Under the pieces are notes generated by a model that had not been told where the DNA came from, did not search any database, and worked only from the letters and a program-made list of their open reading frames with translations. Shown here piece after piece: positions 34,108 to 36,663 of a stretch of 64,000 nucleotides of DNA. The translations under genes and the position numbers were made by a program. Position 1 is the stretch's first letter, and each line of letters opens with the position of its first letter. Origin of the DNA: Amycolatopsis coloradensis (GTDB lineage Bacteria; Actinomycetota; Actinomycetes; Mycobacteriales; Pseudonocardiaceae); assembly GCF_001953865.1 (NCBI RefSeq), contig NZ_MQUQ01000021.1:1-64000 (forward strand). Direction: 5' to 3'.

Positions 34108-34716
34108 TCAGGGCCACGAACCGGAACGGGGGTAGACCGCCCAAGCGCGCTCCCAGGCCGCGGCCCGGTGCCGGTCCAGCACCAGCCGGACGATCCGGTG
34201 GAGCAGGACGAGCCCGGCGACCACCGCGAACCACAGCCAGAGGCCGACGAGCACGGAATCGAAGACGGCCGTGGACGTGGTCCTCGGGGCGGCGGCCAGC
34301 TCACCGCGGGCGTCGATCCAGATCGGCACGGGCGATCCGGCGGGGCTGCCGGGCGTCGCGAGCACACCGCCGGTGTGCCGGGCGCCGCGTGAGTCGGTCC
34401 ACGTCGCCTCGGTGGTGGAGTTTTCGGTCCCGACGCTCTCGCTGTCGACGATGCGGACGGGCGCGGACTTCAGCAGGTACGCGGTGGTGGCCTGACGTCC
34501 GATCGCGTCGGCGGCGGCCGCGGCGACCTGCCTGCCGTGGTTGGCCGAGCCCGCGGCGGCCGCGACCGGGACGGCGAGGAGCGCGGCGAGGATGACGAGC
34601 TTCAGGAGGAGGGCTTCGAAGCGGTCCGAGCCGCGCGCGAGCGAGTTGTGACCGGGAAAGAGCCGTCGCCGGAACCGGGCGATCGGACCGCTGGACCCGT
34701 GCACGAGGAACCCCAT
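34108..34716 (-). CDS. Rv1733c-like double-spanning membrane protein
   Basis: 202 residues. Two membrane helices (about 35-54 and 158-178) frame an outer domain containing ATWTDSRGARHTGGV and PVPIWIDARGEL, a pattern typical of the Rv1733c family of mycobacterial and streptomycete membrane proteins. The family has no known biochemical role; Rv1733c itself is a dormancy-regulon antigen. The GDSL-like name is not warranted. Start ATG 34716 is about 140 bases away from the ABC-F promoter, in divergent orientation. Confidence 0.8.
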   Translation of the reverse strand: MGFLVHGSSGPIARFRRRLFPGHNSLARGSDRFEALLLKLVILAALLAVPVAAAAGSANHGRQVAAAAADAIGRQATTAYLLKSAPVRIVDSESVGTENSTTEATWTDSRGARHTGGVLATPGSPAGSPVPIWIDARGELAAAPRTTSTAVFDSVLVGLWLWFAVVAGLVLLHRIVRLVLDRHRAAAWERAWAVYPRSGSWP

Positions 34717-34817
34717 TCCCTCAGACCGCGAAAAACCTCCGGCTTTGATTCTCGGTCACCGGGGCGCCCCTGTCGCGATAGGGGGACAGAGACCACTCTG
34801 TGAACCCGTACACAACC

Positions 34818-34856
34818 TTTAATTCGTTTTGCCCGCCCGCGTTCTCCCGCTACCGT
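34818..34856 (+). promoter_or_regulatory. WhiB7-like promoter of the ABC-F gene
   Basis: TTGCCC (34829-34834) and TACCGT (34851-34856), 16 bases apart, give a promoter. The AT-rich stretch TTTAATTCGTTTT (34818-34830) stands directly before and into the -35 box. WhiB7/WblC promoters have this design: an AT-hook target just upstream of -35. The start point would be next to the ATG at 34864. The assignment is by pattern; no whiB7 gene is in the window. Confidence 0.55.
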
Positions 34857-34863
34857 CTTCGTC

Positions 34864-34890
34864 ATGGGGATTTTCTACTTCTACCTGTGA
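34864..34890 (+). CDS. Leader peptide MGIFYFYL of the ABC-F gene
   Basis: Eight codons and a TGA: Met-Gly-Ile-Phe-Tyr-Phe-Tyr-Leu. The ATG is 8 bases after the -10 box, so the ORF is at the very 5' end of the transcript and leaderless. It ends 12 bases before a strong hairpin (34903-34943) and 144 bases before the ABC-F start. Short hydrophobic/aromatic leader peptides upstream of antibiotic-resistance ABC-F genes act as drug-sensing stall sites; a stalled ribosome on this ORF would cover the base of the hairpin. Confidence 0.6.
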   Translation: MGIFYFYL

Positions 34891-34902
34891 TTCTCGTCTT
34901 CG

Positions 34903-34943
34903 ACGCGGCCCTGGCGTAGAGCCTTCGCTCCGCCGGGCCGCGT
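34903..34943 (+). terminator. Attenuator-like hairpin before the ABC-F gene
   Basis: ACGCGGCCCTGGCG (34903-34916) pairs with CGCCGGGCCGCGT (34931-34943) with one bulged base and a 14-base loop. A pyrimidine-rich run (CCTTCC, then CTCTTCTTCCTTC at 34957-34969) follows. It should terminate or pause transcription unless the leader ORF is being occupied by a ribosome. Confidence 0.55.
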
Positions 34944-35034
34944 CCTTCCGCGTGCGCTCTTCTTCCTTCGCCGTGCGCGGAACCTCCCCTGCCCGATCGC
35001 GATCGGCCGTGCCGAGAATCAGGAGGACGCCCCT

Positions 35035-36663
35035 ATGCGTACCCCGCATCGGAATCCCGGAACACAACTCGTGCTCTCCGGTGTCACCAAACGTTTCGAC
35101 GACCACGTTGTGTTCGACCAGGTCGGCTTCACCGTCAAACCGGGGGAGCGGGCGGGTGTCATCGGCGACAACGGCTCAGGCAAGTCCACCCTGCTGAGGC
35201 TGATCGCCGGCCGCGAAGAGGCGGACAACGGCACGGTGACCGTCACCGCGCCCGGCGGCGTCGGCTATCTCCCGCAGACGCTGGAGTTGCCCGAAACCGC
35301 CACGGTCGGCGATGCGATCGACTTCGCGCTCGCCGACATCCGGGAACTGGAATCCCGGCTGCGGGCGGCCGAGGCGGCGTTGGAATCCGCCGAAGAGCTG
35401 GCCGTGTACGGCGACCTCACGGCCGCCTACGAAGCCCGCGGCGGTTACGAGGCCGACGCCAGGGTGGAGGTCGCCCTGCACGGGCTTGGTCAGCCGGGTC
35501 TCGACCGCGCGCGAGCGCTGGGCAGTCTGTCCGGCGGGCAGCGGTCCCGGCTCGCCCTCGCCGCCACCTTGGCCGCGTCGCCGGAATTGCTGTTGCTGGA
35601 CGAGCCGACCAACGATCTGGACGACGAAGCCGTCGCCTGGCTGGAGAACCACCTTCGCGGGCATCGCGGAAGGCTCGTCGCGATCACCCACGACCGGACG
35701 TTCCTCAGCCGAGTGACCACCACGATCCTCGAGGTCGACGCGGACCGCCGGACCGTGCATCGGCATGGCAACGGCTACGCGGGCTACCTCGCGGCGAAGG
35801 AGGCCGCCCGGGCCCGGCGGGTCCGGGAGTACGAGGAATGGAAACAGCAGAAGGCCCGGAACGAAGCACTGGCGGACGTCAATATCGACCGGTTCTCGGC
35901 GATCCCGCGCAAGGCCCCGGCGGCTTTCAGCGGGGCAGGCGCGTTCCGGGCCCGGTCTCGGGCGCACGGGGCGATGAGCCGCATCCGGTCGGCTCGTGAG
36001 CGGATCCAGCGGCTGGAGGCCGACCCGGTTCCGCCGCCGCCTGAGCCACTCCGGTTCTCCGCGCGGATCGCCGCCGGTGAGGCGGGAGCCGATCAGCACG
36101 TGGTGAAGGTGGACAACGTGTCGGTGGCCGGACGACTGCTGCCGACGTCGCTCAGTGTGCTGCCGGGGGAGCGAGTACTCGTGACCGGTCCCAATGGAGC
36201 GGGCAAGACGACCCTCATGCGGGTGCTCGCCGGTGAACTGGCCCCGTCGGCGGGTTCGGCGGACCGGTCGGGCCGGATCGGGTTCCTGCACCAGAACGGC
36301 GGCCTCGTCGGCGACGCTCGAAGCGTCTTGGCGGTGTTCGCGGGGGAAGGTGATCAGGAGGAGGCCGCCGGGAAGCTGTTGTCGCTGGGCCTGTTCCGCG
36401 CCGCTGATCTGCGCAAACCGGTCCGGGAGTTGTCCGTCGGACAGCGCCGCAGGCTGGAGCTGGCCAGGCTCGTGACCGCCAGGACCGACCTGTTGCTGCT
36501 CGACGAGCCGACGAACCATCTCGCCCCCGATCTGGTGGAGGAGATGGAGCAGGCACTCGCGGAGTACCCCGGCGCGCTGGTGGTCGTCACCCACGACCGG
36601 CGGATGCGGCGGACGTTCGAGGGCAGGCGCCTCGAACTGGCGCCCGAACCGGTCGCCGTCTGA
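35035..36663 (+). CDS. ABC-F ribosome-protection ATPase (antibiotic-resistance type)
   Basis: 542 residues with two fused ATPase domains and no membrane part. Domain 1: GDNGSGKST (Walker A, about 43), LSGGQRSRLAL, LLLLDEPTND. Linker (about 235-335): charged, with a KAPAAFSGAGAFRARSR section, the region that reaches the ribosome drug site. Domain 2: GPNGAGKTT, LSVGQRRRLEL, LLLLDEPTNHL. ABC-F proteins of this shape in actinomycetes (TlrC, OleB, LmrC relatives) protect ribosomes from macrolides, lincosamides, streptogramins or pleuromutilins; the drug cannot be told from sequence. AGGAGG site at 35021. Control by WhiB7-like promoter plus leader attenuation. Confidence 0.88.
   Translation: MRTPHRNPGTQLVLSGVTKRFDDHVVFDQVGFTVKPGERAGVIGDNGSGKSTLLRLIAGREEADNGTVTVTAPGGVGYLPQTLELPETATVGDAIDFALADIRELESRLRAAEAALESAEELAVYGDLTAAYEARGGYEADARVEVALHGLGQPGLDRARALGSLSGGQRSRLALAATLAASPELLLLDEPTNDLDDEAVAWLENHLRGHRGRLVAITHDRTFLSRVTTTILEVDADRRTVHRHGNGYAGYLAAKEAARARRVREYEEWKQQKARNEALADVNIDRFSAIPRKAPAAFSGAGAFRARSRAHGAMSRIRSARERIQRLEADPVPPPPEPLRFSARIAAGEAGADQHVVKVDNVSVAGRLLPTSLSVLPGERVLVTGPNGAGKTTLMRVLAGELAPSAGSADRSGRIGFLHQNGGLVGDARSVLAVFAGEGDQEEAAGKLLSLGLFRAADLRKPVRELSVGQRRRLELARLVTARTDLLLLDEPTNHLAPDLVEEMEQALAEYPGALVVVTHDRRMRRTFEGRRLELAPEPVAV

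Follow-up and report, generated by a model that had tools for sequence, protein, structure and literature searches.

The window analysed here is a stretch of 64,000 nt from Amycolatopsis coloradensis (contig NZ_MQUQ01000021.1). On its plus strand lies an ABC-F gene (35035-36663), identified by NCBIfam profile matches and encoding a protein of 542 aa. The top match of the protein is to the TlrC/CarA/OleB/SrmB family (NF000171), where its 773 bits fall under the cut-off of 800, and it clears the ribosomal protection-like ABC-F model of NCBIfam (412 vs. a threshold of 380). The TlrC/CarA/OleB/SrmB name is annotated on two of the leader-bearing relatives discussed below (L222 and L229). Along 34820-35034 one meets an AT-rich box, promoter hexamers, an 8-codon ORF, a hairpin, AGGAGG and then the ABC-F ATG, the last two lying 76 nt past the end of the hairpin. 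The small ORF (34864-34890, plus strand) was read directly from the sequence. It encodes MGIFYFYL, ends in TGA and is predicted to be leaderless, its ATG following the -10 hexamer by 7 nt; an in-frame leader is present at 68 loci, the window included. A preliminary description of this DNA had proposed a leader ORF and an attenuator-like 5′ region ahead of an ABC-F resistance-type gene at just this place, and that proposal is confirmed.

It is the comparison with relatives that takes the ORF beyond chance. Homologues were collected from 80 genomes of the genus, 200 of the family and 298 of the order, and by a pattern scan of contigs, whose patterns were general to ABC-F proteins and which yielded only one close relative (L063) among 80 loci. 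Absence of the ORF from close relatives would, by the preliminary description, have refuted its reading, and the outcome was the opposite: within the genus, each of the 20 loci whose protein is at least 71% identical (L002-L021; most places of 40-45% identity were left out) has a leader in the same position. The family set, from which 16 of 46 listed places were left out, including a partial one of 68% (G185), has it in seven of eight homologues of 61-64% (L041-L048), and the order in 11 of 16 new homologues of 57-63% (L143-L158). In L063, from Actinomadura oligospora (64%), the leader is present and starts with GTG. In total, of the 45 closest homologues that were fetched, the leader is found in 39 and missing from L046 in the family and from L143, L144, L145, L147, and L152 in the order. 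L046 (G109:C41) was seen to lie directly behind a frame that resembles, by eye, an HflX-type GTPase. Among 14 remoter family loci (L049-L062, 53-57%), none has the leader together with the hairpin core.

A covariance model (R1) built from 19 leader-region stretches extended the family. In the genus g104, which is probably Streptomyces since named Streptomyces records contain these leaders too, 25 of 295 genomes have one match each (E ≤ 3e-4). A leader MGSL-stop or MGTL-stop accompanies 24 of the 25 matches, and an ABC-F frame lies downstream of 24. The exceptions are L208 (G1073:C4), which has the hairpin, lacks a leader ATG and matches ABC-F only from residue 207 onwards, and L212 (G1022:C96), with MGSL-stop and the hairpin and no ABC-F match within the stretch examined. 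Plasmid records add further cases: 10 of 13 matching records were fetched (H6, H7, and H12 were left out), and MGSL-stop with the hairpin core is present in five (L222, L223, L224 from Nonomuraea gerenzanensis, L225 from Streptomyces albogriseolus, and L229), the other five (L220, L221, L226, L227, and L228) being without this combination. In L222 and L229, the only two of the five that are annotated there, no annotated feature covers the leader in a gene table that is incomplete. In the genome of the window itself R1 scores 49 bits at the window and 30.1 bits at the next of seven matches, and further strong copies were accordingly dismissed. Across 396 genomes of the phylum, 34 have a match at E ≤ 0.01. 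Three of the 38 matches listed exceed 40 bits (the window, L160, and L161; the next has 32.2), and all three precede an ABC-F gene; a spread of the element over unrelated genes was rejected on this ground, with 21 of the 38 matches inspected. Membership in a known Rfam family was discarded as well, as 4227 models run over 34600-35100 at E up to 5 gave only a chance-level sucC match on the opposite strand (E 2.9).

Leader-bearing proteins cluster in the ABC-F tree. Of 103 proteins, 77 entered the tree once near-copies and two short sequences (L208 and L209) had been dropped. All 39 leader proteins that remain after thinning fall in a group of 45, at a fork whose support of 91/92 is short of the mark set by the tree program. 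The leaderless rows inside the group are L143, L046, L144, L145, L147, and L152, and at least four label changes are needed. Such a pattern would fit one old gain of the leader and a few losses.

The 68 leaders comprise 28 DNA versions and 22 peptides of 4-8 codons. They start with ATG (67) or GTG (1) and stop with TGA (57), TAG (7), or TAA (4). The start MG[S/T]L is found in 42, and Ser or Thr likewise stands immediately before Leu4 in 42. Members of the genus have MGIFFTL, MGIFFNL, MGFFFYL, MGFFFYM, MGTLFYL, MGTLSFL, and MGTLHFL; in the wider family the peptides are mostly of the forms MG[S/T]L... or ...L[I/Y]FL, and one order-level group has MLIFL, MLIFFL, MLIFFS, MWLYLR, and MWLYFI. Five leaders (L043, L063, L149, L153, and L154) end in LIFL-stop. 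In L043 and L063 the L-I-F-L is spelled with four different codons each, and the MGTL-type leaders use all four Gly and all four Thr codons; this variety favours coding. The ratio of synonymous to nonsynonymous changes among MG[S/T]L leaders, 170/50, is partly circular, the group having been chosen by its peptide. The expectation that the window peptide itself would be conserved in relatives failed. The window leader is an outlier, one codon longer than those of other genus members, and its ending IFYFYL is not kept where the others have MGIFFTL, MGTLFYL and the like.

The promoter of the leader (34820-34856, plus strand) resembles those activated by WhiB7/WblC, with a TAATTC box (34820-34825), TTGCCC as -35 (34829-34834), and TACCGT as -10 (34851-34856). 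The WblC consensus is GAAAWY, 3 bp, TKGMNN, 16-19 bp, TANNNT (PMC7157823). The window has TAATTC, 3 bp, TTGCCC, 16 bp, TACCGT, 7 nt, ATG (34864), and agrees with it at 11 of 13 scored positions, with the box at only 4/6; none of 100 shuffles reached this score. Over the 68 leader loci the mean is 10.1, vs. 6.5 in shuffled sequence, and the match is complete in three (L202, L209, and L216). The same genome codes for a WhiB protein (L038) with the motif RPRGRPRK, presumably AT-hook-like, and upstream of its gene an AT-rich box followed by GTTGCC is visible by eye. The WhiB7-like promoter of the preliminary description stands on these matches, and control of the leader promoter by WhiB7 is likely.

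At WblC-activated promoters of Streptomyces coelicolor, most transcription start sites are described as lying 7 or 8 bp past the -10 (PMC7157823). For the promoter and LEADERLESSNESS, the distance from the end of TANNNT to the leader start is 7 nt at 50 of the 68 loci, 8 nt at nine, 10 nt at seven, and 6 nt at two. Because this distance fits the start spacing of WblC promoters (PMC7157823), the RNA is predicted to start at or beside the leader AUG, which would make the ORF leaderless or almost leaderless. The leaderless geometry noticed at the window, with its 7 nt, thus extends to all 68 loci within 6-10 nt. Inverted repeats were also seen by eye near the -35 of some leader promoters: GGTGAGC..GCTCACC at the f15 loci L149, L150, L153-L155, and L157, and GAGACGTATCGTCTTG at the Streptomyces-type loci L160, L197-L199, L205-L207, L215, and L225, the latter repeat being seen in one g104 subgroup. 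These repeats are like repressor operator sites. The transcription input seems to differ among lineages, with the leader retained.

Past the leader stop, by 11 nt, begins a predicted hairpin (34902-34944, plus strand), whose outer stem pairs 34902-34911 with 34935-34944. It was found by folding, and its outer pairs show compensatory changes. The fold of 34888-34960 has -36.3 kcal/mol (z -3.5; none of 200 shuffles is equally stable), and the entire 5′ region (34864-35060) has z -3.2. The strong hairpin of the preliminary description is borne out by folding, with bounds of 34902-34944 rather than 34903-34943 and a distance of 11 rather than 12 nt from the stop. Inside it is the core GCG-UA-GAGC-CUUC-GCUC-CGC (34914-34933, plus strand), with a two-base bulge on the 5′ side. 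In the general form GCG-UN-GAGC-loop-GCUC-CGC the core is unchanged, save one G-C to G-U, in 19 of 19 aligned sequences, the alignment covering 19 of 39 leader loci without group f8. Minimum-energy folds leave the two 5′-side bases unpaired at 26 of 27 loci, L153 being the exception. The four loci of f8 have a longer loop and fail the strict core pattern, which 35 of the 39 loci pass. The core is the most conserved element, above the peptide. The outer stem varies with compensation: pair 35-59 is CG in eight, GC in four, GU in one, and broken or gapped in six, and pair 34-60 has four both-sided changes and is broken in five. From the hairpin to the Shine-Dalgarno (SD) sequence the relatives vary in length and sequence. 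In the window, this stretch (34945-35012) has about 45 nt with CCCGATCGCGATCGG that are shared by L002, L004, L006, L015, and partly by L003, and are absent in other genus members.

The core is found in seven of 41 other ABC-F upstream regions, vs. six of 4100 shuffled ones and none of the 41 on the opposite strand. The seven are L063, which is a true member, L028-L031, L067, and L218. Tiny ORFs were noticed by eye at several of these. L028-L031 have a possible 3-codon MRN-stop and L067 (Arthrobacter globiformis) has MKS-stop ahead of the bulged GAGC/GCUC core, and in L218 (G000:C57:26200-28600), an ABC-F gene of the same genome as the window, MDN-stop lies shortly past a -10-like box and is followed by the same hairpin core. 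Another ABC-F gene of that genome, L219 (G000:C15:900-3300), has (V)MQQLLFL-stop shortly past a -10-like box and then another strong hairpin. Remoter ABC-F genes of the family, which are without the core, show by eye MIF-stop (L051), GTG-IF-stop (L056), GTG-VI-stop (L049), and MDF-stop (L057 and L060), and L228, on a Streptomyces cadmiisoli plasmid, has an apparently leaderless MAFLFFV-stop past a -10-like box before its ABC-F gene, again without the core.

How might such a leader control the gene? The region had been compared at the outset with the msrD-type layout, in which a terminator does the work. The leader and the attenuator-like region are there; a recognisable intrinsic terminator is not. 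A scan for Rho-independent terminators left the big hairpin uncalled and returned only two overlapping weak 5-bp stems (34939-34956), and in the sequences inspected no T-run directly follows the hairpin. The pyrimidine run reported earlier exists (at about 34957-34969), separated from the hairpin by about 12 nt of mixed sequence rather than directly after it. An intrinsic terminator was therefore rejected as the main element, with a transcriptional reading kept as a rival since the scan covers intrinsic terminators only. An antiterminator in which leader codons would pair with the GUAGAG in the hairpin was also put aside; such pairing is visible by eye in some leaders and not in MGIFFTL.

The evidence favours sequestration of the SD of the ABC-F gene by the end of the leader. 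The anti-SD arm, CCTGTGATTCTCG (34884-34896, plus strand), consists of the CCU of the last codons, the stop codon and the following bases; the SD arm (35013-35026, plus strand) consists of CGAGAATC (35013-35020) and AGGAGG (35021-35026), the latter read directly. In the window fold, UGAUUCUCG (the stop codon and what follows) pairs with CGAGAAUCA, and the leader CCU with AGG of the SD region. Different letters serve the same pairing elsewhere, as read by eye: CCUGUG/CACAGG in L021, GAAGCAG/CUGCUUC in f15, CUUCCUGU/ACAGGAGG in f8, UUCUCG/CGAGAA in Nonomuraea, and, just before the SD, CUGAUCGACA/UGUCGAUCAG in Actinomadura. Summed over nine clades, the duplex energy of matched leaders and SD regions is -252, whereas permuted partners give -219 (sd 10; p 0.002). 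With three g104 subgroups added (12 clades) p is 0.011, and 30 redraws of the representatives gave a median p of 0.0018 and a largest of 0.057; in this set the start codons of L195, L209, L210, and L217 are probably misplaced and L203, L208, and L212 are left out. The own partner ranks first in two of the nine clades, second to fourth in six, and sixth in one; it is seldom first because CCUGU/ACAGG is widely shared.

Folding of the 5′ region points the same way. With the SD taken computationally as the best match and an SD-anchored rule applied to 66 of the 68 loci (L195 and L212 left out), the SD pairs with its own leader at 0.63 and with foreign leaders at 0.27 (means over 11 clades). Own pairing is above the control in nine of the 11 clades, not in g29 and Actinomadura, and is at or below 0.05 in eight of 26 Streptomyces-type loci. 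Masking the leader in the way a stalled ribosome would, with the SD again a computational best match, raises the probability of an unpaired SD from 0.15 to 0.23 (39 loci, nine clades), compared with 0.15 for a mask in the middle and 0.22 for a shuffled leader, and the effect runs the opposite way in three clades (g2, g29, and Actinomadura). Within these folding models a lid on the SD is well supported in most clades and appears weak or different in some. Translational attenuation is favoured because the leader end pairs with the ABC-F SD above controls in most clades.

We therefore consider it probable, by a modest measure, that the mRNA is leaderless and carries a translational attenuator worked by ribosome stalling. 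WhiB7 would switch on transcription, and the RNA would begin at or next to the leader AUG. When the drug is absent, the ribosome would complete the leader and depart, and the leader end would pair with the sequence before and within the SD, enclosing the central hairpin and leaving the ABC-F gene untranslated. The drug would stall the ribosome at the leader end, so that the lid is covered, the SD freed and the ABC-F protein made. Stalled so that its P site holds the last sense codon (34885-34887), the ribosome would cover the full anti-SD arm (34884-34896) and reach, 15-16 nt ahead, the foot of the hairpin; the same reach was used in PMC6851288. Stalling, the drug class, SD release, WhiB7 control and the role of the hairpin core are what we infer. 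A macrolide as the inducer is suggested, by analogy, by the protein family and by the likeness of leader endings to MsrDL.

Several lines support this translational attenuator: the frame and conservation of the leader, its fixed distance from the -10, the leader-SD pairing above controls, and the clustering of leader proteins in the ABC-F tree; the three stop codons, the 4-8 whole-codon lengths, and the synonymous changes; the LIFL-stop spacing like that of MsrDL, the TlrC/CarA/OleB/SrmB match, and the precedent of tlrB. Against it stand the weak lid in g29, Actinomadura, and eight of 26 Streptomyces-type loci, the own partner ranking first in only two of nine clades, the redraw with p 0.057, and the small effect of masking, close to that of a shuffled leader; so do the shortness of MGSL-stop beside MsrDL, the lack of LIF in the window peptide, and the transcription attenuation of the Streptomyces ABC-F leaders of lmrC and are5sc. 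That the ORF is untranslated, selection acting on the RNA only (anti-SD arm and hairpin), is very improbable. The leader end is indeed constrained as RNA and the hairpin core is better conserved than the peptide, but lengths in whole codons, a start set by the promoter at 68 of 68 loci, three different stop codons, and MGTL-type leaders that draw on every Gly and every Thr codon speak for translation. If the ORF is translated, it could report slow translation in general, or a shortage of amino acids, and not be tuned to a drug; such a role has been proposed for the whiB7/wblC uORF. The wblC gene does respond to many drugs and to amino acid starvation (PMC12421871); these leaders, however, are very short, have no runs of one rare amino acid and retain hydrophobic ends, and we think such a sensor improbable.

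More weight belongs to transcriptional attenuation, in which RNA polymerase would pause or stop at the hairpin and be let through when a ribosome has stalled on the leader, a mechanism that would act either alone or together with SD sequestration. A strong hairpin 11 nt past the leader stop, whose foot the stalled ribosome would touch and whose core is the most conserved element, suits this possibility, as do the precedents: msrD (PMC10314930), lmrC, mapped so by RT-PCR and mutants (PMC8546547), and are5sc, whose transcription is drug-induced (PMC12421871). Set against them, the hairpin draws no terminator call, no T-run comes right after it in the sequences inspected, and the specific leader-SD pairing exceeds its control; transcriptional attenuation is a serious candidate that we nevertheless hold to be unlikely. 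Rather unlikely, too, is that the same switch answers to inducers other than macrolides, namely phenicols, oxazolidinones, lincosamides, or pleuromutilins. Chloramphenicol prefers a Ser/Thr-like residue behind the P site, and Ser or Thr precedes Leu4 in those 42 leaders. Streptomyces uORFs encoding MLV and MVGDDDISG respond to lincosamides, streptogramin A, and pleuromutilins (PMC12421871). But the protein family is closest to macrolide-type ABC-F proteins, MLIFL, MLYFL, and MWLYLR have no Ser or Thr, and the hydrophobic LIFL ending is like that of MsrDL.

Beyond the ribosome-stalling translational attenuator itself, we put forward a broader and more tentative idea: an undescribed actinomycete switch in which the last codons of a leaderless 4-8-codon ORF would be both the drug-sensing code and the anti-SD, joined to a GAGC/GCUC hairpin module that is reused before ABC-F genes with other leaders. 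Its LIF-[L/M]-stop would have arisen independently of MsrDL, and leader length would tune the response to macrolide ring size. Earlier work prompts the idea that 16-membered macrolides, or phenicols, might be what the 4-codon MGSL-stop leaders respond to. Actinomycetes are the lineage where macrolide self-resistance is best known, and the attenuator, if true, would extend drug-sensing leader peptides to their TlrC/CarA/OleB/SrmB-like ABC-F proteins. It would also be a minimal design, with about a dozen bases acting as peptide code and as RNA lid on a resistance gene. MGSL, MGTL, MGTLIFL, MLIFL, MWLYLR and others form a natural set for learning with which nascent peptides each drug can block termination, and the bulged hairpin is a well-defined piece of RNA common to several ABC-F leaders.

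The literature covered by our search holds no description of the leader family, the leaderless design, the dual use of the anti-SD or the shared bulged hairpin; the older tlrC, srmB, carA, and oleB papers lie largely outside that coverage. Control of ABC-F genes by uORF attenuation is, by contrast, already known, both in low-GC bacteria and in Streptomyces lmrC, are5sc, and tiaA. These Streptomyces cases, too, are ABC-F genes of actinomycetes, preceded by uORFs and by 5′ regions with alternative folds, are5sc being in addition a member of the WblC regulon, and the lmrC and are5sc leaders use transcription attenuation. They differ in encoding ARE5 proteins for lincosamide, streptogramin A, and pleuromutilin, in their long 5′ UTRs, and in having ribosome binding sites for the uORFs MLV and MVGDDDISG (PMC8546547, PMC12421871). 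Low-GC bacteria have uORFs before the ABC-F genes cplR, vmlR, vmlR2, and lsaA, with different peptides (MR[I/M], MIN, MK[L/Q], MAGN); cplR of C. difficile combines translational and transcriptional attenuation and has a polyU terminator (PMC10201436).

Among the closest known systems is msrD of Streptococcus, with a very short leader before an ABC-F gene and a hairpin after the leader. Its leader peptide MsrDL (MYLIFM-stop) stalls with erythromycin at the stop codon, where release factors cannot act, and its L3 and I4 have been probed by alanine changes. The L3-I4-F5-M6-stop spacing of MsrDL equals the L-I-F-L-stop of five of the 68 leaders. MsrDL has its own SD, a Rho-independent terminator and a UAA stop, whereas here the leader is predicted to be leaderless, no T-run follows the hairpin and the SD is predicted to pair with the leader (PMC10314930). 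The window peptide MGIFYFYL lacks the MsrDL-type L-I-F before the last residue and stop, the 4-codon MGSL-stop is shorter than MsrDL, and no homology was seen. Another is tlrB (yxjB) of Bacillus subtilis, where a ribosome on the leader MIIQFIRYR frees the SD in response to a macrolide. That gene encodes an rRNA methyltransferase, its leader has an RYR motif, and a terminator and RNA polymerase pausing take part (PMC6851288). Both B. subtilis tlrB and C. difficile cplR are precedents for a structure that hides the SD and is opened by a ribosome on the leader, and the likeness to tlrB is that a leader ribosome prevents such a structure from forming.
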